A stretch of 64,000 bases of DNA from Antedon mediterranea. Lineage: Eukaryota > Echinodermata > Crinoidea > Comatulida > Antedonidae. The notes under the pieces were generated by a model, which saw only the letters and a program-made list of their open reading frames with translations, searched no databases and was not told where the DNA came from. The position numbers and the translations under genes were made by a program. The stretch covers positions 563,001-627,000 of the forward strand of contig NC_092675.1 in NCBI RefSeq assembly GCF_964355755.1. The letters run 5' to 3'. Shown piece after piece: positions 3,377 through 55,225 of the stretch. Numbering within the stretch: position 1 is the stretch's first letter; every line of letters starts with the position of its first letter.

Positions 3377-5233
3377 TCATTCTTTGTGTCTTGATTTGAC
3401 AGGCGTTATTGCTGTCCTTTCTCGAGGGCAACAAACAATTAGGTCTTTGATTCTCGTCGGAAGAGGCAAACAATTGATTGTTGAGGCTGGTATATGTTTC
3501 AAAATCACAAGACGGCACATGTGTACTAAATTGATTTTAGGCGGTAACTGCCATAATCGAACAGCTCCCTCAGTGGATGAGACGGCTAAAACGTCATCAG
3601 AATGACTGAATGATATCCGGATGATTTCTGGATACATGCTGAGTTTACAGGGCGTCATTGCGAAAGCTGTTGCTTGCGTTTTGGAATCGAGTAAATACAG
3701 TATGTTGCCGCTGCTTGATGAAATCATCACTATCACTCCATCTTGACAACCGACAGCAAATGAATCTCCCTCCATGTTGTATTTTAAACATGTAGCTTTT
3801 GTAACATTTTCTGGAAGTTTGGAACAATAGATTTGCGACCCACTGTCAATATTTTTGACATAAACTTCATCAGAGTTTACACAAACGGCCAGTACTTCGT
3901 GTGGGTACTGCGGATCGAAATCATAACAACGCTCATTGGTCAGTTTCTCATTTTTACCATCAACTAATACGCATTCAAGATTTGAAAGGTCACGTTTAAC
4001 TATAAACAACTGACCTCCAGTAGTGCTAACAGCAACAAACTGACTGTCTGGGGAAAACTTGCATTCTAAACGATCTTGATTCGTTGAATTTTTCTGGAGT
4101 TTAAATTTGCTGAAAAGTTCTCGTACCGATTTTTGGTACATGACGAGCATGTCGCTGGCTCTGAGAATGACCAATACAATGGCAAAATTTAAATGCAGAC
4201 GAGAACGTCCTAGTACGGCCACAAAGTTAGAATCAGCAGAAAAGGCACTGAAGAAAAAGGTACTACAAAACATTTCCTTTGCTTTGATGACGCTGCCCTG
4301 TTGTATATTTGAACTGATAATATCTGTATCTGTAAAGAAGCTCACTTGAGTACCACCGGGTGATACGCTACAATGCGGCAAGGCACGACTTGGTTTCGTG
4401 TTAATCACATCTGGAACTATAGAAAGAAATGCAATATATAGTTTAAAGATACATTTTTATAAACTATGACAATTTGTTAAAGAATTCTGATAAAGTCTAA
4501 ATTTGATATGTACAGCAATAAACAAATAAAATGATTGTGTTCCAGTTTGCCAATCATGGCAGGCGCTACCTTGGGTCTATACAGGACAAAAATTAGTTTC
4601 TAGTTAAACAAAGAATGATGAAAAGTTTGTGAAACAGTGTGGTGATGTGAGATTCCGTTTTCAGACTTTTTATGTTTTCTTGGTCAATTTATTCAGTTTT
4701 CTTAGGCAATTTCGTGGTTTATTTTACATCAATATTTTCATTTTCACACTTGTGCTAAATAGCGCATAGAGACTATTTGTATTTTGCGCTATATAAATTT
4801 AAACCATTAACCATAATAAATTGATATCAGGTTACTTACAGTGTGGATCATTAAAACGCCATAGTGTCATGAAGCCCTGCGGTATCCTGAAATAATTCTG
4901 TAGTCTCATCTTTCTTAGCTGAGTCAAACCTTGTGATCCGCGATAAAAATAACCTCCGAGAGACGTGACTATCTGACTGTCATCAAATGGCATAAATGTG
5001 CAGTCTGTCCACCAAATGATCTGAGCAGGGTCTAGCCCAGTGGTGACTACTCCAGGTGGAATCACGTTGAATTGATAGAAGACATGGCCTTGATCCTGTC
5101 CTTCTAAAGAAAGAGCACATCCAGTTTTGGAGAGAATTTTGTGTTTTGGAAAACTTATCCATTTGCTTTGTGGTACAGTCTGTTTTAACTTCTTCGTATT
5201 GCTGTTAACAGTAATATTAGCACCCATTTTCAT
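3377..5233 (-). CDS. WD40-repeat protein with C-terminal SOCS box
   Basis: Two coding exons: 5233-4840 and 4416-3377. The donor (T|GTAAGT) and acceptor (TTTCTATAG|TT) join in frame, giving about 477 residues. The chain has degenerate beta-propeller repeats (FMTLWRF near the end of exon 1; KFSPDSQFVAVS, FSHSDDVLAVSS and GAVRLWQL in exon 2). It ends in a SOCS box at about residues 428-460: a BC-box LVHMCRLVI that should bind Elongin B/C and an LPLP Cul5 box. By family knowledge it would be the substrate receptor of a Cullin-5 ubiquitin ligase, as WSB1/WSB2 are, but I cannot call it an ortholog of either. The start is uncertain: ATG at 5233 or 5227, with an in-frame stop just upstream at 5257-5255, and a 5' UTR exon or further coding exon may exist. 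The substrate is unknown. Confidence 0.82.
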
Positions 5234-31661: not shown

Positions 31662-34600
31662 CTATTGTTGTTTGCAGTTGCCACTGAGTTTTCTTGACCG
31701 AGACAGCTTCTTCTTCGGTTCTTTTACCTGCGGGACTGCAGGTTCCTCTTCAGGTACCTTGTCCTCCACTGTAAGTGTAATGATACATATTATTGAGTAG
31801 CAAGGAAAGAATCTACACTACTAAATATTTATTAATTAATTACCAGATATTTAGAGCCATTGACATTTGACCTGGTATTTATGCAGCTAAAATGAATCAA
31901 CTAAAACAAAATATAATGAGCTTTCCAAGTGAGAACACAAACTGAATGGCTACTTCCTGTCTTTCACAAATGTTCCAGCATGGTTTTGGGCCGGCACCAG
32001 CAAATCGGACGTCAATGTTTCGTTTTTACCAGGCTATACGTGAGCATTGACGTGTCTGAACAGTTGACCATATTTTTTAACAGTGCACACAATATTATTA
32101 ATGTAAAGTACTCGCTTACCTTGATCAACATGTGAAGTTCTATACGGACCTGCATGAGTAAACTGGACAATCTTGCTATCTTCGTAATAAATTTCTTCTT
32201 CCATACTCTCTTCGGACTCACAGGGGTTGTGGAGATTTTCCAAATAGGGGACAACCGTCATACTCCTCAGGGGGTCATTTGATTCATGCAAGGGTCCTAG
32301 ACATACTTCAGCACCATCTTTTGGGTGTTTCTTCAACACCCATCTAGTTACAAAAAAAGTCTCTGTATAAGTATAGGTAGAATAGGCATAGGAATTCAAT
32401 AATAACCATGTCATAGTAAAACCCTGGTAAATTTACACATACGAGCAGTAGCAATCTCATTGTCTTTTCATTGGTCTTCTACACACAAATTATATAATAA
32501 CAGGTAGTTTGCCAGAGAGCTATCTTGGCAGGGGCTACACTCTGTGACTGCCAAGGCCTGTATCCTACAGCACTCCATACAAAATAATAAACAATATTAT
32601 ATTGAAAAATAATATTCAATACTTACGGATGTTGCTTTATCCTATCAAGAGGAAACCTGTCATCTGGATCTTTTTCTAACATTCCTATGATAAAAGGTAA
32701 AGGTTATCGTTTCAAGCTAAAATTATGGTTGAGTGCAATGGACAGAATATTTTAAGTTGAAAGATGGATTTGGACATTTATCTGTTTCATAACACACATA
32801 TTATTCGAATAAACTTTATTTCTAATTCACAGTTTTGATCTTGAATAGAATGTCAAGGCTGTGGAATAGAGCCAATATAGACTGCACACTCTGGTTTTTG
32901 ATTAGATTAGATTAGATTTTTGGATAAATGTTTAGAAAAATCCCAACATACACCCTATCATGAGGATGAACCTAAATAATACACAGCATGTGATACGTAA
33001 TCAACTAATCAGGTGTAGGTGTGTTATAAGTATTCATTAAAAACAGTGTATTTATTAACTACTTGACCTACCATTTAATAGAGTGGTCAGTGGTTGTCCA
33101 GTGTCTGCAGGAACAGTGAAATTCCCTTTCCCAATATTTTCAAATAGTTTATAGATATTGTCACCAGCGAATGGATACTGACCAGTCGTAATATTGAACC
33201 TGTGAGAAAAAAAAAAGTGGTCAGTTTTGGTCATCTGTTGGTGACAGAATAGGCAATACAATGCTAGCTACATTTTGTATTTAACTGAACTAGAAATGGC
33301 CCTTTTATTAGAGGCATTTTCCGTTGTACGATTGCAATAACCACAAGATTTTTTCTTAAGAAATAGTGTCTTTAATATAGAATTTGATTTCATTTGTAAA
33401 AAATATAATTGAAGCATTGCATGTCATTAAAAGTTTTTTATTTTGAGTATCCATTTCTTATTTTACATAGTTTTACTGTACAAAAATTTTTAACAAAAGC
33501 TCATTGTAAATTAAAACAAATGATTTTGGGAATAAATGTTGAACTTGACTATATAGGTAATTCTTAACACACATTACTTTTGTTAAGATTTGTAAACATA
33601 TACATTGGTATTCATTAAAGGCAGCAGTAAATACAAAATGCAAAAACATTTTAAAACATCTTTAAATTGGAACATTAGGGTTTCCTAAAATTACGGGGCT
33701 CTTAATAAACCATACTTTAAAGTCAAAAGAACCTGTTAACCATCTTAAACTGGCATATATACTTTCTTCAAATTGTCGTTAGTTGAAAATAAACTTAAAA
33801 CTTAAAACGGACACAGTGTAGTTTGTGGAAGAACATAAAAAATGTTAGGGATATGCTTACAATGTGATTCCAGATGACCAGATATCTACTTTAAATCCAG
33901 AGAAAAACTCATTGCCATTTGCAATCTCTGGTGGTTGAAAAGCAGGGGATCCCTGACTGGTGCGACATGTATCATCCTTAGTAAACTGGTCTAAGGCCTA
34001 CAAAAGTAACACATTATGTGAATGTACAGTATGGAAATTCAAATAAGCAGATCACAATCACTATTAGGAGAATATTCAACTCTATCAAACTAGAAATTTC
34101 AATTGTACCACACACAAGTTATTTGCAATTTGCAAGTCTTTTGTCCAAAAAGACTGTATAAGGAAATAAAAGCAGAAAAACAAACTATTAAGCAAAATAT
34201 AAATTGCATAATAGTTTCTTTATTTTTCTTTGATATGTATAATAAAGCCTGGTATTTATTTCCGAGAAGGCATTTCCACATAAATATTTTTACATATAGT
34301 CTATTATTTATTTTATATACATAAAACATGTTTATAAACAAAATTACATTATATTATATTTTATAAATAATAACTTACTTCAGCCACACCAAAATCAGTT
34401 ATTTTCAAGGTTCCGTCGGTGGTCAACAAAAGATTGCCTGGTTTTATATCTTTGTGAATTATACCCCTGCTATGTAAATAGTCTAGTCCATCAACTAACT
34501 GTACAAAATACCTGAATGAATAATAATACAGATAGGTTAAAATTCTAATATGCATGTATTCTTGGTTATTTAAAACACTGTCACTTTATTTTAAATATAC

Positions 34601-37600
34601 TTAATTAGGATAATGGTGATTAGAAATAAGTGCATTAATGAAGGATGACAATTCAAAACCATAAGAAAATTATTATGTAGTACAGCACTGATAATATCTA
34701 ATGTTCACTTTAGTACAGGTTCAAAGCCCTGTCTACACTATCAAACTTTATGTGACAACAAAATGTTATGTGCCCATATATGGATATGTCATATACACTA
34801 CCATATTTGATCATATCACTACCATATTTGGGCACATCACACTTTTTTTTGTGATGATGATGACGAAAACACTGATAATAATAAGATGATGATGATGTTC
34901 CTGTAATGGTGTTGTTGATCTTGATATTGATGGAGATAATACTAATGATAGGCTACAACAAGTTAAAGAAGGGAAGCAAGATCTTACAGTACTTTGAAAA
35001 GAATGCAGGAAAGGCCTTAATCATTAATGAAATGGCCTGTCACACCAAAATCGGTCCGGCGGACCAGTTTTGGCTGCCAAAATCAGTCCGGGGGACCATT
35101 TATGGCTGCCAAACCTGTCCGGCCGGACCAATTTTGGCCGCCAAAACTGGTCCGGCCTGGATAAAATCGGTCCGGGCAGTAGGACTGTTTTTGGCCGCCA
35201 AATATGGTCCGGTCTTATAAATATATGGTGCGCAAAATGAGTCATAATGTATATATCATTAACACTTTCACCGCCAAAGACGGAAATCTCCGTCTTTCGA
35301 TGCCCAGCGCCAGACCGCCAAAGACGGAAATTTCCATCTTTGGCTTTTTATTGCACAATTTGTTAGATCATGTATATATGGACCGCATATAGAAATTTCA
35401 ACATCCAAATCGACCTGGACCGCATATATTTTGATACTTTATTAACCCCTAGTGCCATTGACCTAGCTGGCCTACATCGCGTCCTATCCGTAAACAACAT
35501 AATGTGCTTTACTGCAGAGGAAGCAATTGCAGAAATATTTGCCGACTCTGACTCTGAAAATGAGTATTTATTATCCCCAGATGATGAAGGTATATTTGTA
35601 CCTAAATCTGGTTTATAAAATGTAATAAATAATTGGAGATAATTTAGCTAGCCTGGCTTAGACTAGTTTGTAGAATAGGTTGAGAAACGTGACACTGACA
35701 GACGGTGCAGCCAGGCTAAAAACCTCATTATCTCTGCTTTGTTCTCCGATTGAGCCTAAAGTGCTAAAAGTGAGCCAAGTTCTTTGTACAATTATGTGGT
35801 ATTACAGTTTTATTTCAATAAAGTGTTTGGTACCATTGGAAAGTTTATTTCTATCTCATTATTTGAGTGTATATTGCATGTTATTCTGATTACAAACACC
35901 TTTGCTATGAGCTTTGAAAAACAGGTAAATTTATCTAAAATGGCTGGCGGTGAGGGGTACTTCCTTTATTGAATGCCTGGCGGTGAAAGTGTTAAAAAAA
36001 AGGCCATGATTAGTCATTATATTGAAAACTACGGGGTTTTATTTGTTACTTTAATATTATAAATTAAGCCTGTTTTTTTTATTATCATTATTAGTAGTAA
36101 CTCATCAATAATTAGTACTAATTGTTAGGCTTTTTGTATACAATACATACTGTATGTATCTCTGCCGGTTTTTAATCCATTTTGTTCTTTTTTAACATCT
36201 TCGTTTCCCCATGATGTTAAAAACCATTTAATTTATTAATTATTTATGGTTAATCAATCAATATATCAATTCAATACAATTATTATAAAATAATTTTCCA
36301 ATATTGATTGGGCTGAGGAAGGAAAAAGGCCTCAATCATAAATAAAATCTAGCTGGCAATATCAGCGTCTCATACCTGTTCGTGTGAGTGTGTGGCAGGC
36401 TGAAATATGAGTGAACACCTAAGTCATGTTTTTAGATAAGATACATTTATTTATAGCATTTATCCGACAAGATAACTTACTAATATATATCATGGGATAT
36501 TTTTCTAGCCACAAACAACTTAAAACAGCATCATAGGCCTAGTAATTCAATTAAAATCGACAGAAGAAAAGTCCGGACCGATTTTGGCAGTGGCGGACTG
36601 CTTTTGGCCACAATTTTAGAGCCAAAACTGGCCGGACCGATTTTGGCCCCGGACCATATTTATCGTGACAGGCCATTCTCACCAGCAAAGTTACATTAAA
36701 AAACAATATCTTACTCACCCATGTGCCTGCCATATAGGTAACCTCTTATTACCTGAACTTTCCAAAAGTTCTTGAATGTTACCTACACAATATTCCATAA
36801 CTATATACGTATAAATTATTAAAGAAAAAACAACACAAAATATTACTGAACTGTCATCTAGAACAGGGCTAGATTTAATTATTGCAGAGTATAGATTCTA
36901 GATATCAACTTGTCAGCCTACTATTACTGTCAAGATGCAGTATAGTAGAGAACCCCTTTTGGACCCAAAAAATGCACTATGAATAGGGGTTGGTCAATAC
37001 ATAAATTTCTCCTTGTTCGTTTAATGGAAAGGTGTCCTCTTAATAAATAATAGAGGTTTCGCCGGAATACTAAAGAGATAACATAAAGAATAGGTTTTAC
37101 TGTACCAAACTAGATGACATTACTAATAATTTTGTATAGATTTCACAATTAAAATTATTGGTGATGACAAAATGAAACCAGCCCTAAAGCAACGGAAACA
37201 TTGAGAAAAAAATGTTTAAATGCTATATTCAGTAAAGTTTATATGTATAAATGCTATATTCAGTAAAGTTTATATGTATAAATGCTATATTCAGTAAAGT
37301 TTATATGTATAAATGCTATATTCAGTAAAGTTTATATGTATAAATGCTATATTCAGTAAAGTTTATATGTATAAATGCTATATTCAGTAAAGTTTATATG
37401 TATAAAATTGTAATATGTTTATAACCTTGTCATTTTACAAAATGCATTATGAGACGGTTGTTGTAAATTGTACAAGCTTACCAGTCGTAGACATGATAAT
37501 GGGATATATCTAAAGAATTATCATTTTATTGGCTTCCCAATATCTGGCAGCAAATGTTGCTACTATAATTGTTATAGATTTGCAGATGGGATTAGGGTGG

Positions 37601-40600
37601 GAGGCAATTAACGTGACAAAAGTGGAAACGATTTCTGCAAGATATACAGTACTAGTACACGGCAATAAATATTTGTTTTACTCAGTATAAAAAACATGCG
37701 TGTTTAGTGCTTTTAATAAATCAACAATTTATTCAATATACCATGATACAATTGAGTATAGTCCCAGGTTACAAAATTTGGTAAAAATTGCAGGGCTGAG
37801 ATTATATTACTTGATTGCGTTAATAATAGATTTACCAAAGATTTAGAGTATGTTCAAATTCATCCTATATTAGAGAGGGATTAATACTCGTACGATAAAG
37901 AGGAAACTTAGTAGTATACATTACAAGCATGAAATCAATAGTAGTGGAGGCTAAATAATAATAAACATGTTTAGTGTAGCATGGATCAATTTTTCTCCAT
38001 TGTAATAGTGGATTATTAGTAATAAAGATTTATGAATACCGTTCCATACAAAAGCGTACTATTGCAAAACATGTGACCCATATTCGTCCAATCAAATGAA
38101 AGGAATTTATTTAGGTTTTACATAATATAATATTATATATTGTATGGAAAAGCTTTCAGGTTTGATCCCGGTTAAGAATCTTTTGATAAAATATAGTAAA
38201 ATTGGATACAAATATACTGTATAACGATTAGAATAGTATTGTAGGGAGGGTAAGGTGACGTGGAAAGGAACTGGCTACCCTACACATTATGCCCAGCCTT
38301 ACAGCTCACTCCCATACTCAGAATGAATACGAAACTGGCTACCCTACACATTATGCCCAGCCTTACAGCTTCCTCCCATACTCAGAATGAATATGAAACT
38401 GGCTACCCTACACATTGGGCCCAGCCTTACAGCTCCCTCCCATACTCAGAATGAATACAAAACTGGTTACCCTACACATTATGCCCAGCCTATACAGCTT
38501 CCTCCCATACTCAGAATGAATACGAAACTGGTTACCCTACACATTATGCCCAGCCTTACAGCTCACTCCCATACTCAGAATGAATACGAAACTGGCTACC
38601 CTACACATTATGCCCAGCCTTACAGCTCACTCCCATACTCAGAATGAATACGAAACTGGCTACCCTACACATTATGCCCAGCCTTACAGCTTCCTCCCAT
38701 ACTCAGAATGAATACGAAACTGGCTACCCTACACATTGTGCCCAGCCTTACAGCTCCCTCCCATACTCAGAATGAATACAAAACTGGTTACCCTACACAT
38801 TATGCCCAGCCTATACAGCTTCCTCCCATACTCAGAATGAATACGAAACTGGCTACCCTACGCATTATGCCCAGCCTTACAGCTCCCTCCCATACTCAGA
38901 ATGAATACGAAACTGGCTACCCTACACATTATGCCCAGCCTTACAGTTCCCTCCCATACTCAGAATGAATACGAAACTGGCTACCCTACACAATATGCCC
39001 AGCCTTACAGCTCCCTCCCATACTCAGAATGAATACGAAACTGGCTAGCCTACACATTATGCCCAGCCTTATAGCTCCCTCCCATACTCAGAATGAATAC
39101 GAAACTGGCTACCCTACGCATTATGCCCAGCCTTACAGCTTCCTCCCATACTCAGAATGAATACGAAACTGGCTACCCTACACATTATGCCCAGCCTTAC
39201 AGCTCCCTCCCATACTCAGAATGAATACGAAACTGGCTACCCTACATATTATACCCAGCCTTACAGCTCCCTCCCATACTCAGAATGAATACGAAACTGG
39301 CTACCCTACGCATTATGCCCAGCCTTACAGCTCACTCCCATACTCAGAATGAATATGGTACTCTCTGCTTGAATACATAAAGATTTGAAATCTAACTCAC
39401 TACATATAATGTGATAAATGTTACACTTTACCGTCCCACAGTAAAATTTATTAATAATAAAGCAGTAAAAGGATATATTTTTTGTTTTTCCTCATTGTGA
39501 AGAACATCTACTAGGTGGATAACGTTTATATGGTGCAACCGACGTAGTAATTTGATTTCTCTGTAAAAAAAAACACAAAAACAAATAGATGAATACATAA
39601 TACTAATAATAACAATAATGTTCAATTTATATAGCGCAAAATGCATGGTGTATCTATTAAGCACTAAACAATCAATAACAATGTAAAAAGCACAAAAATA
39701 CATAGTACTCCATGCTAAATTATTAAACAATAAGAATGTGTATTGAATGTAATGGTAACCATTGTTTACTCCCATTGCTGGAACTACTCCAAGAGGAAAG
39801 GGAAATAACACTTAGTATTACTACTAAGATTCCATGGAAATTGGCTGCCTTTCCCATTACGAATCACAGTATTATTTACTGTTATGAATTTCAGTATGTA
39901 TGAATGGAATGTAATTTTAATGTAATGCTAGTCACTCGATCATATTTTAAATTACCGTTAGCAGCAAATATTTATGTACAGCATGCTACTCTTCAAACAT
40001 ACAGTAAACCTAACAATCAGGGAGGAGGAAAAGTAATGATTTTTATGGAATAAAGTTAACTTTATTTGTCTCCAGAATATTTGTCATTGTTACTTGCCTT
40101 GTTTTGCAGCATTTGAAGATTTTAGACAAATATGTTTGTTATTATTTATTTATTTATTATACTGGGCGACCACCTCTGTTAAAAACTGGTCTCCCAGAGG
40201 AACTAGTTATTGTAGATTCTTTAAAGTGTACATGAGCTACGGTTTATAGTCCTTATCTGAGAAGACTCGTTCTACCACCAGAATGATGGAGCGAGCGAGC
40301 CTCCAAACCTTGTGGATGGTATGGCTACGTAATTACGGTTCCACTCTCTTAACTGCTCGGCCACCGACTCACTCACCCACTATTATTTTTAAACCGCTAC
40401 CAAAGTTTTAGACTTATTTCTGGTATTATGTATAAGGATCCTAACTTCAGACTACTGTTTAGTGTATAGTGCCATGGCCTTGCAATGTGAAAAATAAACA
40501 GGTTTTGCTAAACAGTGTAAATAAATTACCTCCATTTCCTTAGCAACTTCCAAATAAATTACAAAATAACTATTATACAAATATTATGCAACCGGTATAA

Positions 40601-43600
40601 TTTCAACAATTCATGATTGTATAATATTTTTAACTTTAAATACAAAAAAATGTTATTGAGCAGTATTGTCCATATTAGGGAGAGGTATATACCCCAGGAT
40701 GGGCTTATACACAGCCAGTATATCATGCAGACAACCCAGTACAATGTTTCAATAGACTATTTGCCTTTACACTTGAATTTATAAAATTTATTTTATTAAC
40801 GATTTTTCAGCACAAATTTTCAAATGATATAGAATTAAATCATTGAATAAACACATACTATATTATTATAAAATCATATAATCTGTAAAGGCCAGAGAAA
40901 AATAAAATCTTACGATTGATATGCCTACATATTCACCAATTTAATAAAAAACATGTAATATTATGCATTAATTCATTTAATATGTCACACTCCTCCTCAC
41001 AGAGAACATTACGTGACCATCATTTTTGCCATTAATATAATCATATTCAACGTCATCAACCGATTGCTGACCAGTGAGAACTACCAGCTTGCTACGATAA
41101 CTTTACAATCACAGTTCACAGCAGCTCACTAACAACTTAACCAACAAATATTTTGACACAAAAACAAATTGTTTATTATGAAAAATTGTTATGTGAACAT
41201 AGTATAGCTACGGTAATTGCGAACAAAAATTCTCCCGGCGCTAAACTAAATTATGTTTTGTAAATTAATTCTTGTTCTGTTGATTGATTACAAAGTAAGG
41301 ACTGGTTGTGTTTCTAGATGACCATGAAAGACTGTAGAATCTATAATTACAACCTGATTACTTCTATCTCCAATGATAATCAAAAATAAACTAATGATTT
41401 CCAATGGTCATCATCTCCAAAAACACACTTCATCTTGACACTAAACTCATAAATACATACATTACAATTTAACATCAGCAAGGGTTCGAGCCTCACTCAC
41501 TCCATGGTTCTGGTGGTAGAACGAGTCTTCTCTAATTTAAGGACTTTGTACTGTACAGTAGGTCTAGTGTACACATCTAGCTCTTTAAAGAACCTAGTAC
41601 ATCTATCGAGATAAGTAGGGGTTACCCCAATGTACTACTAGCACACACACAGCCATTGCCACTCACAGCCACTGATCATAACTGGGCCCTCAGAGCACCC
41701 AGTATAAAGAATAAATAATAATATATAAATAAATTTGACGTACAGTCAAATCACAACTGTGATTTCATTTATTTTTGGGCTGCCCAACATAAAAAAATCT
41801 TTTACTTGTTTACATAAAATGTTACTTTTCATTTTTCATACTACAAAGTTTGAAATTCCATCTAAAATATTACATATTATACTTTTTTTTATATCCAGTT
41901 AATTTTGTTTTTATTTCCTGTGAATAATAAACTGATTCTTGTTCTGACTGGTTTATTGTTAGTATCTGTTCGCCCACTCTATTATAAAATGCCTTATAAA
42001 TAATTAACTAATTCAAAATTACTTTAATTCTCATTTTAAATTTAAGATACACATAAACATATTTCTTTTCAGACCTGGCAACAAATAAATAATAAATATA
42101 ATATTCCAAATATGAACAAACAGAGCAAAAAAATATTAATGTGATAAATTTTAAAATAAAAAAAACATAACTTGCTAAATTGAAATGTCATCATTTTTGC
42201 ATTAAATATATATATCAAGGGGAATATTACTAAAAATGGTTTTGTTAATCGTCTGCCTAAAGGTATACCACTCACTGTGTAAAGTTGATGGTTCTGTTGA
42301 TATTTTTTTTTATTTTGCTTTCTTGTTTCCGTCATAAAGTTTTGTTTAATGTCACTAATATGTTATGTATGTTATTTGTTGATTTTTGCATGTACAGTAC
42401 ATTATATTATATTTGATGTCTTTCAACCCTGTTCATGGTGATGTATGGTCACTGTAGGCTGATGATGTATGGTCACTGTAGGCTGATGATGTATGGTCAC
42501 TGTAGGCTGATGATGAAATAAAATAAAAACAAAAATATCAGCTGTTTTATACTAAGCTTTGAGAAAAGAATTGTTGGCGATTGTTTTAAAACTATCTATT
42601 CTAGGATTTAGTGGTTTGTGGTACTTTTTTCTTAAACAAAGACAACTACATCATAATATAATATATTAGTAATCAAATAGAATTACAGTAATTGTCGGAC
42701 CATGCCAAACATAATCCTGATGTAATGAGTCAGCGTTCATGTTCTAACCGCACTTACTATGGGCTTAGGCCTAGCTGATGAAAAGCCAGCATATGTTTTA
42801 AATGAGTCTAATATCAATCTATGAGTTCAGAGATTTAAAAACTGAAGTATGAACAGAAATTCACAAATTGAAGGGAATATAGAAATCATTTACACAAACC
42901 AACAGTGGTGTTGGCAGTCTACGAGTGCTGTATACCTGATAAACCAGAGCGAGATATCTCGAAAAGTAAAAGGGTTTTAGGTTAAATTCATTGAACACTA
43001 ACTGTACTCTGCACAAATGGTATAATCCAAAAACGACACCCTCTAGTGGGAGCGTCTAAACAACCACCATCATCAACAGCTTGTGGAAATACTGGGATTG
43101 CTATTTTGAACTGAATAATTATTTTTAATTTTATGTAGTTAAGTTCTTCTGGGGCCCCAGACATTTCATGTTATGGTGACTCTGTTGCTTTTGAGGTCCC
43201 AGGACATGATGTCGAATAAATAAATGAGAATGAAATGAGTACATAAATTATCTATATTTATAATACATTTTTGAAACAGGTGGGTAGGATTGAAATTATA
43301 AAAAGGTCGCAAGTTTAGAAGATCAGTTTATGATTCCCATTCAGACATTGATTATTCATTATTTAACATTCAAGAAGAGTAGCAAAGTGCAAATTGTATG
43401 CTTTGGGCATTTTTGTATTGTAGCTATACTGACTTACATAATCAAATTTTAAGGAGAAAAATTATACTGTAAAATGTTAAAGATACTACTGTATAAAGTG
43501 GAAGACAAGTACAGAATGCTGATTTATAAGGGTTAGCAGAGGTCATACTACAGAAGAAAGTTAAAAATACAATTACAAGAAAGTACATATGTTATAACAC

Positions 43601-46600
43601 ACCTGAGTGAATCCCTGCCATTTGATTGGTTCATTTTGTACCACATGTCGTTTAGTATCTAAGTTATAATTGCACAGTATAAGTTCTATTTAGCTTCTAT
43701 TAACTAGAGGGAGAGCTCGCTTCGTTCTCTTCCCTCTAGGAAGTGTAGGTGATGGTTCTCGAAATGATAATGACTCGGGTAAAAAGGTTTTAGAAGGACG
43801 TTCTTGCTTTGACGTTTTCGGTTGGTTACCATTCCTGCCTAGGAAATTATATTTTGTAGATATTTGTTTGTGTTTTTTATTTTTTTCAATTCTACATCCA
43901 ACAGCCATGACCAACTACAGGATGTCTTATTTTTAAACAGCAACATTTCATAGTACAGGCCAGTGAATTTTTTTGGAGGCAATACGGACCAGGATCCCAA
44001 TTTTTGATCACTTTTTAATTATTTTATAATTTTAGGCCGTACGTCAAAACCGAAGACGAATCTTTTTGATTCTTGATCTTTTTCTCTTTTTACTCTTTCA
44101 ACTGTTTTTCTCTTTTTACTCCTTCCACTGTTTTTCTCTTTTTACTCCTTCCACTGTTTTTCTCTTTTTACTCCTTCCACTCTTTTTCTCTTTTTACTCC
44201 TTCCACTCTTTTTCTCTTTTTACTCCTTCCACTGTTTTTCTCTTTTTACTCCTTCCACTGTTTTTCTCTTTTTACTCCTTCCACTGTTTTTCTCTTTTTA
44301 CTCCTTCCACTGTTTTTCTCTTTTTACTCCTTCCACTGTTTTTCTCTTTTTACTCCTTCCACTGTTTTTCTCTTTTTACTCCTTCCACTGTTTTTCTCTT
44401 TTTACTCCTTCCACTGTTTTTCTCTTTTTACTCCTTCCACTCTTTTTCTCTTTTTACTCCTTCCACTCTTTTTCTCTTTTTACTCCTTCCACTGTTTTTC
44501 TCTTTTTACTCCTTCCACTGTTTTTCTCTTTTTACTCCTTCCACTGTTTTTCTCTTTTTACTCCTTCCACTCTTTTTCTCTCTTTACTCCTTCCACTGTT
44601 TTTCTCTCTTTACTCCTTCCACTGTTTTTCTCTTTTTACTCCTTCCACTGTTTTTCTCTTTTTACTCCTTCCACTGTTTTTCTCTTTTTACTCCTTCCAC
44701 TGTTTTTCTCTTTTTACTCCTTCCACTGTTTTTCTCTTTTTACTCCTTCCACTGTTTTTCTCTTTTTACTCCTTCCACTGTTTTTCTCTTTTTACTCCTT
44801 CCACTGTTTTTCTCTTTTTACTCCTTCCACTGTTTTTCTCTTTTTACTCCTTCCACTGTTTTTCTCTTTTTATTTGCTCTTGTTTTTGTACACAATATAG
44901 TATTATTAATATTTATTATTACCGTATCTATCAATATTAATATTAATCGCTGTTAACATATTAAATCTTAAATATTAAGAGCTTTCCAATTTAATGTGAC
45001 AGAATTAACTTTGACGGAATATTATTAGAATAAACTGATGCTATTGTGTTGGTAATAAAGAATGTAGGGCACATTTTACACTGCTTGATCCAGGTGTGCC
45101 TGATATTCTAGGAAGCATGATTTGATGAATGTGAGGCCAGCACAGTGTAGTAATCACTCCCATAAGACACAAGGTGGCTGAGCTGGTTCTACATTATTTA
45201 AAACATGTTACCAAGGAAACATATATCAGTGCATCTGTTTCCAAAGGGTAATTGGTGATACTGAGAAATGACATTTAGTACACATTCAAATCTAAAAATT
45301 GACATTTTAAAAATACAATGCAAACAAGCAGTCATTCTTAATTACATTCTTCTTCCTACAGAAGAGAATACTAATAATATTATAATATAATCTCATTGTA
45401 GCATATTTTCTTACTGGTGGTCTGTTGCATATTAGAATTTACTAAAACTGTAGTTTAAATAGACCAGAAATTGTTAATAAATATTTGTTAGTATATTAAT
45501 ATTCTTATTAAATAATTAAAATCATAAATATGAAAAACAACTATTTATTAAAACAGTCAGTTTTATGTATAAAGGCTTGGAAAATAACCAAAAACGATAT
45601 AAAAATAAGACATAAAGATAACGATGATTTTTTATTGTTATTCCATGCCATTGATCATGACGTCAATTGATTAATACAGTAATACTTAATCTTGATTGTC
45701 AACAACAAAATAATTGACATGGTGATAAGGTATAAACTAGTTAATCATTTTTGTTGCTGTATTAGTACTTTAGTAAATAAACACTATTACTAATACTAAC
45801 TATACTGACTCAGGAATAAGCCCACCACCTTGACATACTGTATAAGCCCACCACCCTGACATATACAGTAATCCCATCACAAAAATGATCCATGTGACTC
45901 GCATTGACTCAGGAATAAGCCCACCCTGAGATATAATTCCATGTAAGCATTGCAAATTCCCTACAATATGGTCGTCAGAATAAACAACCTGTCTGGATGG
46001 TCAATATGTACATTACATGAAAGCAAAAAACAAAAAAAAACTAATTTTAGCTAGAGAAATAATAATGTACAGTAAGCATCCATTATTCTCTGACTGTTCA
46101 TAATTCATAAACATTCATAATGCTCTGACAGATAATAGCAAGAATTGATTAAATCAGTTTTCTTGTACCTTTAATAACTGCATAGTCTTGATTAAATCAG
46201 TTTTCTTGTACCTTTAATAACTGCATAGTCTTGATTAAATCAGTTTTCTTGTACCTTTAATAACTGCATAGTCTTGATTAAATCAGTTTTCTTGTACCTT
46301 TAATAACTGCATAGTCTTGATTAAATCAGTTTTCTTGTACCTTTAATAACTGCATAGTCTTGATTAAATCAGTTTTCTTGTACCTTTAATAACTGCATAG
46401 TCTTGATTAAATCAGTTTTCTTGTACCTTTAATAACTGCATAGTCTTGATTAAATCAGTTTTCTTGTACCTTTAATAACTGCATAGTCTTGATTAAATCA
46501 GTTTTCTTGTACCTTTAATAACTGCATAGTCTTGATTAAATCAGTTTTCTTGTACCTTTAATAACTGCATAGTCTTGATTAAATCAGTTTTCTTGTACCT

Positions 46601-49600
46601 TTAATAACTGCATAGTCTTGATTAAATCAGTTTTCTTGTACCTTTAATAACTGCATAGTCTTGATTAAATCAGTTTTCTTGTACCTTTAATAACTGCATA
46701 GTCTTGATTAAATCAGTTTTCTTGTACCTTTAATAACTGCATAGTCTTGATTAAATCAGTTTTCTTGTACCTTTAATAACTGCATAGTCTTGATTAAATC
46801 AGTTTTCTTGTACCTTTAATAACTGCATAGTCTTGATTAAATCAGTTTTCTTGTACCTTTAATAACTGCATAGTCTTGATTAAATCAGTTTTCTTGTACC
46901 TTTAATAACTGCATAGTCTTGATTAAATCAGTTTTCTTGTACCTTTAATAACTGCATAGTCTTGATTAAATCAGTTTTCTTGTACCTTTAATAACTGCAT
47001 AGTCTTGATTAAATCAGTTTTCTTGTACCTTTAATAACTGCATAGTCTTGATTAAATCAGTTTTCTTGTACCTTTAATAACTGCATAGTCTTGATTAAAT
47101 CAGTTTTCTTGTACCTTTAATAACTGCATAGTCTTGATTAAATCAGTTTTCTTGTACCTTTAATAACTGCATAGTCTTGATTAAATCAGTTTTCTTGTAC
47201 CTTTAATAACTGCATAGTCTTGATTAAATCAGTTTTCTTGTACCTTTAATAACTGCATAGTCTTGATTAAATCAGTTTTCTTGTACCTTTAATAACTGCA
47301 TAGTCTTGATTAAATCAGTTTTCTTGTACCTTTAATAACTGCATAGTCTTGATTAAATCAGTTTTCTTGTACCTTTAATAACTGCATAGTCTTGATTAAA
47401 TCAGTTTTCTTGTACCTTTAATAACTGCATAGTCTTGATTAAATCAGTTTTCTTGTACCTTTAATAACTGCATAGTCTTGATTAAATCAGTTTTCTTGTA
47501 CCTTTAATAACTGCATAGTCTTGATTAAATCAGTTTTCTTGTACCTTTAATAACTGCATAGTCTTGATTAAATCAGTTTTCTTGTACCTTTAATAACTGC
47601 ATAGTCTTGATTAAATCAGTTTTCTTGTACCTTTAATAACTGCATAGTCTTGATTAAATCAGTTTTCTTGTACCTTTAATAACTGCATAGTCTTGATTAA
47701 ATCAGTTTTCTTGTACCTTTAATAACTGCATAGTCTTGATTAAATCAGTTTTCTTGTACCTTTAATAACTGCATAGTCTTGATTAAATCAGTTTTCTTGT
47801 ACCTTTAATAACTGCATAGTCTTGATTAAATCAGTTTTCTTGTACCTTTAATAACTGCATAGTCTTGATTAAATCAGTTTTCTTGTACCTTTAATAACTG
47901 CATAGTCTTGATTAAATCAGTTTTCTTGTACCTTTAATAACTGCATAGTCTTGATTAAATCAGTTTTCTTGTACCTTTAATAACTGCATAGTCTTGATTA
48001 AATCAGTTTTCTTGTACCTTTAATAACTGCATAGTCTTGATTAAATCAGTTTTCTTGTACCTTTAATAACTGCATAGTCTTGATTAAATCAGTTTTCTTG
48101 TACCTTTAATAACTGCATAGTCTTGATTAAATCAGTTTTCTTGTACCTTTAATAACTGCATAGTCTTGATTAAATCAGTTTTCTTGTACCTTTAATAACT
48201 GCATAGTCTTGATTAAATCAGTTTTCTTGTACCTTTAATAACTGCATAGTCTTGATTAAATCAGTTTTCTTGTACCTTTAATAACTGCATAGTCTTGATT
48301 AAATCAGTTTTCTTGTACCTTTAATAACTGCATAGTCTTGATTAAATCAGTTTTCTTGTACCTTTAATAACTGCATAGTCTTGATTAAATCAGTTTTCTT
48401 GTACCTTTAATAACTGCATAGTCTTGATTAAATCAGTTTTCTTGTACCTTTAATAACTGCATAGTCTTGATTAAATCAGTTTTCTTGTACCTTTAATAAC
48501 TGCATAGTCATTCAGGAAGTCATTGAAAAGCAATTAATGGGTTTATACTGTACAGGAGCTTTTGAATTCAATAGCAATTTGACAAAAAAATGATACCAAG
48601 GAAGACTTGGAAAAGAGATAACTTAAGCTTTCCTAATCTAGTCAAAATCTTTCGAAGTATAAGCCAGGAAACTAACAGTAGGTACCTAATTTCCGGACAT
48701 GCATCGGTAAAGTAAGACGTACTAGCAACCGGTTGTTCCCACCCTTTCTTTCTTGTTCGTGACTATATTATTTATATGTTATAAAAAAGACTGCATACAC
48801 TATAGCAAGAAAGAATACATGTGAACTTCTATAAAATTTGGGAGAGAGGTTCTTGAGATACTGCTGTACTATTGTAGGGTGTCCACACAAGTGCTTGGAC
48901 TTCAGCTGTGTGATCTTTCATCACCATGTAGTATAAATACGAACATACGATATTACTATTATTAAATATTAAATATCCAAGACCAGCAGGAATATGAAAC
49001 TTAAGATAAAATGCATCTTGAATGACAAGTTGAAAGTTTATTACATAAAAAAAATGATTATTTCCAACAACCAATAATTGTCCTTTCTTTTCACTTTAAA
49101 ATTAAAAACCAATTGATTAAGGTCTAGCAGTAAATTAGAGTATACATATATAATTAATATGTTTATTGCGCCTTATCATGTAATCTCATGGCAGATTACA
49201 AATGTGGACATGGTTAGCACTTTTCAACTACATGCTTCTCCATAGGGTCACATCATGGATTGTCATTGCAGCCCCCAATCTCTCTCTTAAAATAGTAGCT
49301 GCATCTCTTTGTACTCGTCTTAAATTTACAGGTTCTTTAAAGTATACACAAACATACCAGAACCATGGAGTGAGTGATCCTCAAACCTTTGGTTGGTTAA
49401 ACTACCTTAACTGCTCAGTCAATAACTAATACTGATAAGCAAAAATAAAACAAAAATATTATATTAATTATTTATTAACATTCGTTCAGCTGTCAACTTT
49501 TGTTCTAGTAATTTTTAAAATTCTGTATCGTTTACAGGTATGCATTGCAAAACATTTAAATATACTGAAATTTGATACTGAATATTTTGGATATTTGAAC

Positions 49601-52600
49601 GATGGAAAAATAATTAAATTTATAAATAATTAAAACTACTGTAACTCTATTACAAATCACTGAAGATTTGTATATTTTTTATATGAGATAAAGTTCTCTT
49701 TCGTATTTTGGATAACTGGAGATCAGAGGCCGAGAAAACCATGACCACAAAGATAATAAATTACACAATCCAATAGTGGTGTTAGTAGTCTATGATGAGT
49801 GCCAGCTTACCTGGATAAACCAACAATAGCTTATGCTCTCCAGAGGAAGGGCTTAGATACAAAAGTAACAAGAAATATTTCTTACAAAAAACGCTGCTCG
49901 CTTATTGAAAAATATTTTTTATTTCAAATGTTTTTGAATGTGTCATTTTATTGTCACATAATAGATAGTTATTTTACCTGAAAAAATGTAATTTAAAGCA
50001 ACAAATACTTAAATTGTCTGTCAGACAATGGTTTTTGGGTTTCTTTTCATTTTTTATATGTGAATAAATATTACTTTTTTGTTACAGAAGTGAATACTCA
50101 ATTTCTGTCACTTTAGTTAATTTTATTGCTAAGGTCAAATCTGGGGGTCACTTCATCACCCTAGATATTTCAATTGTGAAGTATCCTATTACAAACACAA
50201 ACTTTAATTGACTGTTTCGATAATAATTCAATGAATATCTGACACTGACAGTGAATATAGGGATTTGTAATTTTAGCATGACATGTCCTAATAGACTCTT
50301 TCCCAGCCGTTTTTTGGGTCCACTGTAGCAGCTGGAATCAATAAATCATAGTGGAGTTTCCATTTTCACAAAACTGTCTGTCCTTAGAACTATAACTGCT
50401 GCTTGCTTTAGCTTCTGATTGAGTAGTCCTAATGGGACGTAGCGGGCTAGAGCAGCAGCGTGAAAAGTTCTAACATATCCACATAAGGGCATGGTTGTGG
50501 GAATAGTCCATTATGGTACAGAGGTGTTCCAGGAATTTTTTACCTTCGTATCTAAGTCCTCCCTCTGGAGAGCACAGGCTATTGTCAGTTTATCCAGGTA
50601 AGTTAGGCACGAAATAGACTTACTGTAGTGTGTGAAATCCTATTATTTTATGTAATTACTGTACAGTAAACTAGAGAGAAATGGCAATGAGGGTCTCCTT
50701 TATGGCTGCTGGATTGGTTTAAAAAATCAATGATTTAAAATTAAATATTAAGATATTAAGAACCACATAAAACCACAACAGAAACCACAATATGATCATG
50801 GACCTCTAATTTATAGGTCCATGGTATGATACAGTAGTCTATTGGATAAACTGCCTTCTTTCTTATTAGATACAAATTACGAAATTTGATTAGTTTGTAT
50901 TAAATATTGGTAAATAATTGAAAAGAATATGAAGTAAAATAGGTAATGTTTCACTTGAAGTCATATGTTTGAAATACCTTTAAAACACAACATACAAAAA
51001 TCCAGGGTTGGCTGTATACAAAAGGATGTAATGGCAGTAGCATCCTGTACAAGACAATGAGGTAACCTGATCCAGGGGCCAAAATGAGGAGGTAACCTGA
51101 TCCAGGGGCCAAAATGAGATAATAAACACAACAACAACAACATTGAAAGAAAGCCAGTGTTATTGTTTACACAACAGGTCAGTTCTCTCCTATGTACATT
51201 TGCTTATTAAATATCATATCATAGCATGATTGATAATTCTATTATCAATTAAACAGGGCCAGGCTAATAATATTCAAGTTCTTGGTCATGATTGTAAATA
51301 TTTCTTCTATAGGGCCTATTATTAATAATGCACTTAACAGAGTTTTTGAAATAAAAAGTTCAGCTATTTGCTCTTGTAGCAGAAAATAATAAAACGGTAG
51401 AATATTGTTTTTCTCTGCGAAAATGTACGAATCGTACAAATAAATTCACATACTGTAGTGGAAATACTAGCTTACAGTAGCTAGCTTATTCCATTAATGT
51501 AGTACTCACTGTAGCATGCTATATCTATTGAACAGTGGATGCTACTCTAGAAAGTTTTACCATAGATTTTATGGGATACGGATATTAAAACAAACAGTAC
51601 AAAGACAAATATTAAAATATATTTTGCAAGATTACATTTATGTAGGAACGTGGGCCTAGTTGTTTGTACACCTAGTACAGGGTCATAGAGTCTCAATGGC
51701 TGTCTTAAAGATAGCTATATTTACATTAAATTTATTGGTCATTTATGATCCAGTGTTTGGCTAGAGGCCATGTTTAATTGACAATAATGATCCAGTGCCT
51801 ACTGTAGGTAGTAGTACAATTAACACCTTCACTTAAAAAAGAAAATAAAATGTTAAAATTGAGTATGCACTAAACCTAACATACATTAATTCTGATAGTA
51901 CCTAAGCTTTGCAAGAAAAGTTCTTTAAAATCAATAAATGTTTTCGTAAATGGATTATGTAACAGGTTTGTTATCAATAGGTGAAAATCATGCGGAATAC
52001 AGTCTTGAGTTTCAATGATAAGAAACATCCTTTCAAGTAAATATTGACTGTTTTAACTGGGTCAGGAATATAGTTAAGTTTTCTAGTTGGCTGCACAATT
52101 TACCCCCAGGGCTTGTCACATGACTTGTAAATAATAATAATGTCAATAACCTCCGCGTTTAACAGTTGGCATTTAAATACATACAGTTTGACCATGGAGA
52201 AATATTAGTAATGGTATGTAAACATTATGAAAAAATTATTATCATATTTCATGACAATTGTGAATCAAGATATTTTGTGATTTACCGGTAACTGAAAAAA
52301 AATTCATATACAAAATTATCAATAATTATTATTTATAAGTACACACAAAACAAGAATAGCTAAAAAAATACTGTAATTTAGGAAAACTTTTAAAAGTTTT
52401 TGTTGTAAACTATTCAGTAATTTATATATTTTTTTAACTATCTCATTTTAACTTTAAAAGAACGTAAAAATGTAAATTCAGTGATTCATACTACTTTTAG
52501 TGATGGATACGGTTTATTGAACACACTTCCATTCCACCAGATATGAGGTGCTTACACATGGATCAGTTTAAACTTAAATCTTGGCTAACAAACACTAGTC

Positions 52601-55225
52601 TGGCATTGTACAATGTCTAGTAACAATTAAGCTAGTCAAACTTGCTTCCTACAATTAATTAGTCCGGTAGTCTAGTAACTAAAAATTCCAATATCGAGTC
52701 CTTCTTAAATACAGTATATGTGCGTGGCATTTACCAATAATTTATATAATTTAAAATGGATGCCGTACGTACTATTAAAATTCACTGTTTGCTGTACCAT
52801 AATGATATTACATGTTATTTTATGCAATATATGCAATGAATATATAGTATATTTATTTTACTCAGTGTACTTACAGATATTATTTGGGTTTTTTCAAAGG
52901 GGTCAGAAATTCTAGATATAAATGTCAATTTTCCTGTTTCCAAAATGACATGCTTCATTTTGTTTAGTACGTAATATTCAAACAATAAACTATCACAAAA
53001 TGACAACTATTTGTATCCACAAAAAAAAATTATTTCTTTATGTTTTGTATCAAATTTTTATTTTTATCTTTATTTTTGTCACAGTTAGCGAAAATAATGA
53101 ATATGAATGAATACATATTCATCACATAATTAAACTATGTTTATAAAGATAATTAATGATGAAACCAGGAAATAAAGTATGTAAAAAGTGAGACCCCAGA
53201 TTGCATAATTCATTCGTTCAGTTTTCTTTTATAGTATAATTACAAATTAAAAAAAAACAATTTCCCTTAAAACTTTAAGCTAATTATTTAAAAAAGTATA
53301 CATTACTGTATAAATAGTTACTTTAAAAAGGAAATCTATAAAAAAGCAAAATCTATTTGTATGTAATAACATTTTATTGATGTCAGCACTTTAATAAATT
53401 TATGATAAGCTGGTAATGACGGAAATTAAGCTATCTACTGCAATCATCTACAGCTAAAATAGATTTGGTTCAAACGTTAAATGGACTTCCAAGATATTTT
53501 ATTTTACTGCAATATGACAAATATAAAAGCTGTTCCTGTATATGCTCTTGCAACATGGACGTCAGCTCTGATCTCATTTGATAAATGATAGGTTAAAAAA
53601 TACAATTGATTAATCAATTTAGTGCTAAAGACAGATTCTGGATTAAGGAGGATGAAGGAGGGGAATAAGGAGAGGCAGAAGGGGTGTAAGGAGGAGAAAG
53701 GAGGGAAAGGAAGGTGTGTATTGGAAGATGAAGAAAGGGAAGTAAGGAGGTGGAAGTAAAGAGGAGGAAGGAGGGACAAGAGGTAGGGGGAGTAAAGAGG
53801 ATGAGGAAGAGTAAGGAGGATGAGAAAGGGAGAGTTGGAGGATGATTGAGGAAAGAAATAAGGAGAAGTGAGGATTAATAAGGAGAGGAGGAAGGGGAGT
53901 AAGGAAGTGAGAGAGGGAGAGTAAGGAGAAAAGGGAGGGGGAGTAAGGAAGTGAGAGAGGGAGAGTAAGGAGAAAAGGGAGGGGGAGTAAGGAAGGGAGA
54001 GTAGGAGGATGAGGCGAGTCGACTTGTTGGAATACCATTTGATGTGGAAAAAAGTCCATAATCAATGCAAAAAAAGAGCTAGACAGATTCTGAAGGAGTA
54101 AAGAAAGGTGAATAAGGCAAGTCAGCTGATTCACCATGATTAGTGGAAAAATCAATAATCATTGCAAGAAGAGAGCTAACAACGGATTCAGAGGGGTGGA
54201 AGGCACAGTGCTGCCGCTGGTTACTCATTTTGGAATGCATGTGAATAGAATATTCTAGATTATAAATTATGCTAAAAATGATTATAACTGGCCAGTGAAT
54301 GTTTGAGTGGGAGGGGCAGGTGGGTTTCTTTATTGAAATGTCTGCTTTGATCAACAACATTTTTTTAGAAATCAATAAAACCACTCATGTGGGAAAGTTA
54401 TTTGCATGTTGTACTGTATTTTGGTTTTTACAAGAATTGCATTTTTACACAAAAGCAAATTGCAGTGTTCAATAGGATTAGGATATTTCCATACATAGGT
54501 ACTATTGAGTGGGTCCTACACTGAAAGAAACTATTCAAAACAAAAAAATAATAATAATATATAAAATACAAACAATTATTATTATTAAATCAATATTTCA
54601 CAGTGATATTATCAACTTTATATTCGAATGATGAATTCAGCAACATTTATTTATTTATTTTTTGCCAATCTTCATAGCCAAAAACAAAATAGAACGGTAC
54701 ATTAAGTTGTGATCAACTACAACCATGTTTTCTTGCATAGCCTATCACATCGGCCTACACTACTAGATTACAGTCAGTAGCTAGGGCTAGCCTACCACCA
54801 AGCCCACCATCTGTTTCTGTTGCGTGTTTGTGTGATCTGGAATTCAATGTTCTGAAGAATAACATAAAAACAATATTTGATTTCTATCTATAGGCCTACC
54901 TCTGTACATTTTGATCTCCATTTGGAATTTTTCTTAATTTTCTTCTTTTCAAAATTTTAACGGCTCGCCTGCACAATGTCTCAGAATCTAAAACTTCTTT
55001 TACTTTACCGTAAGAACCTTCTCCAAGCACATCACCCATAAGATATTTACCAACCATTTTAGCCTTCTTCCTCCGTGGTTGATAGATAATTTCTGCAGAG
55101 TCAACCCTGTGAATGAAGGGGAAGTCCACATCATCGTTCAGATAGGCAATGTGATCTACGCTGGGTGTAAACGGAGTGAAACTTTGATTCGTTTCCTCTA
55201 TGTACATGTCTGCATCGACCATCAT
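31662..55225 (-). CDS. STK11: Serine/threonine kinase LKB1
   Basis: Nine exons: 55225-54900, 39560-39477, 36808-36719, 34511-34379, 33997-33861, 33199-33072, 32684-32627, 32343-32120, 31768-31662. They join in frame to 428 residues (human 433). Kinase features: N-lobe start [18 protein letters not shown]; glycine loop GEGSYGKV (68-75); ATP-binding Lys90; alpha-C Glu110; catalytic HKD (186-188); DFG (206-208); T-loop [16 protein letters not shown]. The C-terminus KLSGNCKQQ keeps the farnesylation motif CKQQ and a nearby Ser. LKB1, with STRAD and MO25, activates AMPK-family kinases in energy sensing and polarity. Exons 2-7 are 84, 90, 133, 137, 128 and 58 nt, equal to human as I recall. Intron 2 is AT-AC; intron 1 is 15.3 kb and full of minisatellites. 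The start could be the adjacent ATG at 55222. Confidence 0.97.
34723..34850. mobile_element. MITE family A, copy 4
   Basis: Begins caaagccctgtctacacta and tcaaactttatgtgac. It includes atgtgcccatatatgg and, inverted, accatatttgggcacatcac. The far terminus is worn. In intron 3 of STK11, about 210 bp from exon 4. Confidence 0.8.
35263..35991. mobile_element. piggyBac-like element (internally deleted), TTAA-flanked
   Basis: The 729 bp element has inverted ends CACTTTCACCGCCA and TGGCGGTGAAAGTG, each bounded by a TTAA target duplication (35259-35262 and 35992-35995). The subterminal words gccaaagacggaaat and ttccatctttggc are partly palindromic. TTAA specificity is the hallmark of piggyBac. It keeps only the start of a transposase-like ORF, so it is non-autonomous. 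Confidence 0.9.
35502..35618 (+). pseudogene. N-terminal remnant of a piggyBac transposase
   Basis: A 38-residue frame with [19 protein letters not shown], then DDEG, and a stop. Acidic DSDSE-rich N-termini are typical of piggyBac-derived (PGBD) proteins. The catalytic DDD domain and the Cys-rich C-terminus are absent, so the remnant cannot transpose DNA by itself. Confidence 0.65.
36809..36826 (-). promoter_or_regulatory. U12-type 3' splice site and branch point of STK11 intron 2
   Basis: On the minus strand the branch motif TTCTTTAAT (36826-36818, consensus TTCCTTRAY) is followed about 10 nt later by the terminal AC (36810-36809). The exon then starts G-TAT-ATA. There is no polypyrimidine-AG at this join, as expected for a minor-spliceosome AT-AC intron. 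Confidence 0.9.
36940..37103. mobile_element. Short-TIR repeat family C, copy 5
   Basis: Left tagtagagaacccctttt, interior gaaaggtgtcctcttaat, right ggttttactgta. Lies in the U12 intron of STK11. Confidence 0.7.
37215..37406. repeat. 31 bp minisatellite, about 6 copies
   Basis: Units starting aatgctatattcagtaaag repeat without change every 31 bp in STK11 intron 2. Confidence 0.95.
38026..38135. mobile_element. MITE family B, copy 3 (worn)
   Basis: Shares tactattgcaaaacatgtga, cccatattcgtccaatcaaa and ggaatttatttagg with the other copies; the left part is degraded. Confidence 0.7.
38267..39355. repeat. 64 bp minisatellite, about 17 copies
   Basis: Units starting cccatactcagaatgaata recur every 64-65 bp with scattered substitutions, including variants shared by non-adjacent units. 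That pattern points to higher-order duplication. The array lies about 120 bp from the donor of STK11 exon 2, inside the AT-AC intron. Frames such as [16 protein letters not shown] are artefacts. Confidence 0.96.
39467..39476 (-). promoter_or_regulatory. U12-type 5' splice site of STK11 intron 2
   Basis: Exon 2 ends CAAAAAAT and the intron starts ATATCCTTTT, a full match to the AT-AC minor-spliceosome donor. Together with the AC acceptor it restores codon Met and the kinase reading QKMYIVMEY. Confidence 0.95.
40138..40385 (-). mobile_element. tRNA-derived SINE, copy 2 (full length)
   Basis: On the minus strand the head reads GTGGCCGAGCAGTTAAGAG, an A box of Leu/Ser tRNA type. It is followed by a B-box-like ggtttggaggctc, the shared body (ctggtggtagaacgagtc) and an (AATA)n tail. 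In STK11 intron 1 in the gene's orientation. Confidence 0.87.
41468..41740 (+). mobile_element. tRNA-derived SINE, copy 3 (5' truncated)
   Basis: Starts within the tRNA head at the B box (gggttcgagcctc), lacks the A box, and continues with ttctggtggtagaacgagtc. It ends gcacccagtataaagaata followed by an AATA-type tail. In STK11 intron 1. Confidence 0.85.
42438..42513. repeat. 24 bp repeat, 3 copies
   Basis: gatgtatggtcactgtagg repeats three times at a 24 bp spacing in STK11 intron 1. Confidence 0.93.
42890..43060. mobile_element. Family E transposon end (fragment)
   Basis: Shares cagtggtgttggcagtctac and cctgataaaccag with the terminus of the larger element at 49770. It may be a solo end. 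Confidence 0.5.
43690..43908 (-). CDS. Unassigned open frame, possible terminal exon
   Basis: A 72-residue frame in STK11 intron 1, same strand. After an acceptor-like AATTTCCTAG|GC at about 43843 it encodes a basic, Ser/Pro-rich stretch ([18 protein letters not shown]) ending at a stop. The composition is more protein-like than the surrounding AT-rich DNA. I do not recognise it and see no partner exon. It could be an alternative or nested exon, or chance. Confidence 0.2.
   Translation of the reverse strand: MAVGCRIEKNKKHKQISTKYNFLGRNGNQPKTSKQERPSKTFLPESLSFREPSPTLPRGKRTKRALPLVNRS
44084..44872. repeat. 26 bp polypyrimidine minisatellite, ~30 copies
   Basis: Units starting tttttctctttttactcct repeat every 26 bp with a few G/C variants (cactg vs cactc). 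The strand bias is extreme: the STK11 transcript would carry about 800 nt of purine-rich RNA. Three units equal 78 nt, so frames stay open across the array, giving meaningless Phe/Leu/Ser ORFs up to 296 codons. Confidence 0.96.
45590..45765. mobile_element. Possible foldback element resembling family D
   Basis: Inverted patches (atgccattgatcatgacgtc and its surroundings against attgacatggtgataagg) flank a core of tgattaatac type. Similarity to family D is weak. Confidence 0.35.
46145..48509. repeat. 43 bp minisatellite, 55 apparently identical copies
   Basis: The unit (starts ttgattaaatcagttttct, ends aactgcatagtc) recurs exactly every 43 bp for 2,365 bp, and I see no variant in any row. It lies in STK11 intron 1. 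Such homogeneity implies very recent expansion or an assembly-generated array, and the copy number should be treated as provisional. Confidence 0.97.
49290..49432 (-). mobile_element. tRNA-derived SINE, copy 4 (fragment)
   Basis: On the minus strand: cagttaaggtagtttaacc, a B-box-like ggtttgaggatc, then cactccatggttctgg and tttaaagaacct. It is diverged and its tail is lost. In STK11 intron 1. Confidence 0.72.
49770..50640. mobile_element. Family E foldback DNA transposon, ~0.87 kb
   Basis: Long terminal inverted repeats: the left 49799-49865 (cttacctggataaac, atgctctccagagg, cttagatac) matches the reverse complement of 50546-50610 at most positions. The similarity extends outward to about 49770 and 50640. 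There is no transposase frame. The interior word atgtaatttaaagcaa recurs near 59.7 kb. In STK11 intron 1. Confidence 0.82.
51061..51119. repeat. 30 bp tandem duplication
   Basis: ggtaacctgatccaggggcc occurs twice at a 30 bp spacing. Confidence 0.93.
53640..54010. repeat. Purine-rich (GGA/GAA) low-complexity tract
   Basis: About 370 bp of almost pure A/G on the plus strand, with internal duplications (gggagtaaggaagtgagaga occurs twice). The minus-strand 170-codon Ser/Pro/Leu frame is a by-product. Mirror-like polypurine tracts can form triplex DNA. Bases 54011-54230 hold a diverged ~100 bp duplication. Confidence 0.92.

Follow-up and report, generated by a model that had tools for sequence, protein, structure and literature searches.

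In the tumour-suppressor gene LKB1/STK11 of Antedon mediterranea, the second intron is very probably orthologous to intron 2 of human STK11. It belongs to the rare AT-AC class of U12-type introns, is very probably ancestral, and most likely depends on the minor spliceosome for its removal. The intron occupies positions 36809-39476 on the minus strand, is 2,668 bases long and interrupts a Met codon in phase 2; an earlier note on this DNA had placed a 2.7 kb AT-AC intron here, and a direct reading of the minus strand bears it out. The crinoid and human introns lie in the same gene and at the same codon (the Met of KQKMY), and they share phase 2 and the AT-AC subtype.

The window (the whole stretch of 64,000 nucleotides that was analysed, C6:563001-627000) carries the gene on its minus strand. 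A tblastn search with a human STK11 query, which over the exon 2-3 peptide is consistent with the human STK11 chains in the PDB, located exons 1 to 8 in order. These are the coding part of exon 1 at 54900-55225 (putative ATG at 55225; E 2e-35), exon 2 at 39477-39560 (84 nt; E 8e-9), exon 3 at 36719-36808 (90 nt; E 9e-7, with a PDB match to human STK11), exon 4 at 34379-34511 (133 nt), exon 5 at 33861-33997 (137 nt), exon 6 at 33072-33199 (128 nt), exon 7 at 32627-32684 (58 nt) and exon 8, up to a GT donor, at 32120-32343. The gene model gives the same exons, and exon 8 was also placed by alignment with the human protein. The sizes of exons 2 to 7 equal the human ones. The LKB1 product is 70% identical to human STK11 over 338 residues, and human STK11 is the nearest solved structure to the exon 2-3 peptide, so the crinoid gene is, judged by its predicted protein, the LKB1/STK11 orthologue. 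It is single-copy, with four exons that match this locus alone in a search of the genome (354 Mb). A processed (spliced) LKB1 copy, sought genome-wide as evidence for the junctions, is absent. Neither tblastn nor the gene model found the final exon or exons beyond the exon 8 GT donor, and a scan of viral_contigs for relatives returned one distant kinase and nothing else. Elsewhere in the window, a 359-aa open frame at 3377-4456 (minus strand) has WD40 repeats and a SOCS box and is possibly a WSB-like protein.

The splice model gives the LKB1 introns phases of, in order, 2, 2, 2, 0, 2, 1 and 2; intron 2 is the only AT-AC intron, and all six others are GT-AG. Intron 2 begins with ATATCCTTTT and finishes with TTCTTTAATAATTTATAC. 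The donor (39467-39476) is an exact match to the U12-type 5' splice site (A/G)UAUCCUUU, and from 39476 it reads as the (A/G)TATCCTTT that defines the AT-AC subtype, which is further marked by the terminal AT and by the terminal AC of the 3' splice site (36809-36810). The branch-point sequence TTCTTTAAT (36818-36826) matches TTCCTTRAY at eight of nine positions; position 4, a T, sets it apart from TTCCTTAAC, and its final base is also T. Its candidate branch adenosines are 36819 and 36820, which lie at -11 and -12, and 10 intron bases remain 3' of the second (36819); a U12-type branch motif is expected some 11-13 nt before the 3' splice site, which is also the optimum spacing (PMC3584512), and the motif here is optimally placed. 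Thus the donor, the branch motif and an AC 10 nt after it all stand as first described, and so does the join that restores KMYIVMEY, since AAAAAT|GTATATAGTTATGG, read across 39477/36808, gives KQKMYIVMEYC with the Met codon cut AT|G; no other positions restore LKB1.

A first-order Markov model of this strand gives ATATCCTTTT a chance of 4.5e-6 at the one homologous position, and gives 0.005 as the chance that a branch motif matching at 8 or more of 9 positions lies 8-15 nt before the intron end. The only other exact ATATCCTTTT in the whole window, where 0.29 are expected per strand, is at 12725 on the + strand and is not tied to any recognised exon. A scan of intron 2 for another U12-like donor with CC, or for another branch motif, found neither. 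Scored as a U2 donor, the AT-AC donor receives -9, whereas the gene's six real GT donors receive 4.3 to 8.6; the U2 scoring matrices were built on metazoan frequencies and are approximate.

The same scoring bears on a different reading, in which the major spliceosome, using a GT-AG pair nested within intron 2, connects exons 2 and 3, as the main product or as an alternative one in the manner of the prospero twintron. On the minus strand no stop interrupts the frame beyond the AT-AC donor (39476-39428) before an in-frame U2-like GTAAAG donor 45 nt on. This nested donor, at 39431 (ACG|GTAAAG), scores 5.8, inside the range of the real donors, and its pairing with an acceptor that ends at 36851, with the exon resuming at 36850, leaves the reading frame open. 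The acceptor, however, scores 3.6, below all six real acceptors (4.3-15.1), and the pair is the best among just seven in-frame GT-AG combinations near both exons. Its use would add 45 nt to exon 2 and 42 nt to exon 3, change the Met to Ile and put 29 extra, mostly hydrophobic residues into the beta5/hinge region of the kinase, and it gives no account of the exact U12 donor and the branch motif. We therefore regard this join as very unlikely to be how the two exons are spliced; the nested sites themselves are not implausible to look at, and they may see minor use. The arrangement resembles the twintron of Drosophila prospero (a U2 intron inside a U12 intron) in having a frame-keeping, usable-looking GT-AG pair within an AT-AC intron, and differs from it in that the crinoid pair is a prediction from sequence and that its product would disrupt the kinase hinge. 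It is highly improbable that the 39431/36851 pair is used in some tissues so that the 29-residue hinge insertion turns LKB1 off; if it were, the minor spliceosome would gate LKB1 activity in crinoids.

A further coding exon hidden within the 2.7 kb is another alternative, and 18 acceptor-like and five donor-like sites do lie inside intron 2. Only two combinations of these give a frame-keeping cassette, however, and both contain stops, while the direct join of exons 2 and 3 already gives the human protein free of gaps, so that such an exon is scarcely credible.

In human STK11, intron 2 separates c.374 from c.375, is U12-type and measures 823 bp; its retention is written p.Met125Ilefs, the Met being p.Met125, and c.375-10A>G, near its branch, prevents its removal (PMC12366057). 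Its termini are auauccuu..ac, and IVS2+1A>G leads to Peutz-Jeghers syndrome (PMC5387049), so that the statement from which this work started, that human LKB1 intron 2 is an AT-AC intron mutated in that syndrome, is correct (U12-type also in PMC12366057). The crinoid intron is like it in its ATATCC donor, branch near the 3' end, AT-AC ends, codon and phase 2, and differs in length (2,668 bp against 823 bp), half of the crinoid intron being two minisatellites.

Hardly any case is known in which a U12 intron was gained (PMC2831892, PMC3584512). The U12 intron common to crinoid and human therefore implies, from the two species compared, that intron 2 would already have been present when the echinoderm and vertebrate lines diverged, if not before. 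The earlier suggestion that it predates the split of this lineage from vertebrates is thus supported, for these two species, by the identical codon, phase and subtype and by the four snRNAs described below. Separate acquisition of AT-AC termini in crinoids and vertebrates, by parallel gain or by a switch of type, found no support in the two lineages compared; it would have to have produced the same codon, phase and subtype twice, and essentially one U2-to-U12 switch is known, in dUrp (PMC2831892, PMC3584512). Against it also stand the 127 minor introns that one alignment set shows to be common to human and acorn worm (PMC10639083), and we find it barely conceivable. In the same alignment set 116 minor introns are common to human and a mollusc, and non-tunicate deuterostomes have vertebrate-like minor-intron densities; the survey text searched does not mention crinoids (PMC10639083). 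Vertebrate U12 introns are strongly conserved, and conversion is less frequent among those of the AT-AC than of the GT-AG type (PMC2831892). That vertebrates and ambulacrarians have minor introns in common is already documented genome-wide, and the crinoid LKB1 intron is an expected added example. The papers searched contain no discussion of STK11 intron 2 in invertebrates or otherwise outside vertebrates. The genome also encodes an exact crinoid-type SALMFamide, GLRFHKGAPF-GKR (C5:24566751), in which GKR is an amidation and cleavage site; a degenerate GLRFHKGAPF pattern plus the next Gly has one genome match and its backward control none, and GLRFHKGAPF-NH2 has been reported from three of the three feather stars studied (PMC9793003). 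The peptide marks the animal as a feather star; mitochondrial COX1 was also sought for its identity and has no match in the assembly.

Covariance-model searches show that U11, U12, U4atac and U6atac are all encoded in the genome, all above their family cut-offs. The bit scores are 126 for U12, 137 for U6atac (of which there is an additional, weaker second copy) and 98 for U4atac; the two U11 genes, L010 (C5:11057853) and L011 (C8:13519935), score 89 and 83 bits, both over the Rfam cut-off. These two U11 genes have diverged, with a common 5' end (AAAAAGGGCTTTT) and different later parts. Matches to the zinc-finger family of U11-48K are present, but that family is common to other proteins and they were not counted as evidence. 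The intron-pairing segments are intact in U11 (AAAAAGGGCTT), U6atac (GAAAGGAGAG) and U12 (GAGTAAGGAAAA), and by inspection they appear able to pair with CCTTTT, TCCTTT and, with one G-U pair, TTCTTTA, respectively.

As a positive control we examined PHB2, whose human intron 5 is an AT-AC U12 intron common to Drosophila (PMC2831892), where it is intron 3. The crinoid gene (L022, C3:7911800-7918800) has a 2.7-kb AT-AC intron ending in TTGTAC, AESAIM|ATATCCTTTC...CCTTAACATTGATTTGTAC|LGEAISQ, its position at AESAIM|LGEA being that read in the crinoid gene itself. It is like the LKB1 case in that the AT-AC intron is conserved across animals and lies in the same genome (on C3), and differs in its gene. 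Thus the genome retains AT-AC U12 introns elsewhere too.

From the sequence, position and phase of intron 2 and from the snRNA genes we infer the following route of splicing. U11 would pair with the CCTTTT of the donor and U12 with TTCTTTAAT, bulging the branch adenosine at -11 or -12; U6atac would then displace U11 at the donor, and the AC 10-11 nt downstream of the branch would serve as the 3' splice site, joining the AT|G of the kinase Met. The intron body would be free to drift, and its two minisatellites, about half of it, seemingly expanded in place.

These are a 64-bp array of 17 copies with 95% match (38269-39355) and a 31-bp array of 6.3 copies with 99% match (37212-37406), both from a repeat search and together ~48% of the intron. 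The 64-bp array had been described as an invasion that ends about 120 bp from the donor. It does stop 121 bp short of the AT-AC donor, but "invaded" is too strong, since the unit is unique to the locus: in a genome search, which skips very common words, it matches at this array only. Dispersal by a mobile element was considered and rejected, every match being inside the array. That the unit was detected nowhere else suggests that the minisatellite arose by local expansion. The sequence GCTGTAAGG, a fair U2-donor look-alike, occurs in 13 of the 64-bp repeat units of intron 2.

The intron was also said to be packed with repeats, and the two arrays agree with this, but it is not special in that respect. 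GT-AG intron 1 (39561-54899; 15,339 bases in the gene model) carries larger arrays, so that the abundance of repeats is a habit of the locus or of the genome and does not belong to the AT-AC intron as such. At 46145-48509 intron 1 has 55 copies of a 43 bp unit with 100% match, a very recent expansion or an effect of assembly. At 44079-44872 it has a pyrimidine-rich 26-bp array of 30.5 copies (TTTTTCTCTTTTTACTCCTTCCACTG), which accounts for long spurious ORFs and for some of the strong GC skew of the + strand. Intron 3 has diverged dispersed repeats of the CCAAAATCGGTCCGG type at 35045-35146 and 36560-36660, one of them near exon 3, which possibly belong to a genome-wide family.

The crinoid intron adds a confirmed data point and no new principle. 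It indicates that large minisatellites are tolerated in the body of such an intron provided that the donor and the final 20 bases stay, and it presents a crinoid with a full set of minor-spliceosome RNAs and two textbook AT-AC introns. A disease-linked AT-AC intron would thereby go back at least as far as the last ancestor that echinoderms and vertebrates share.
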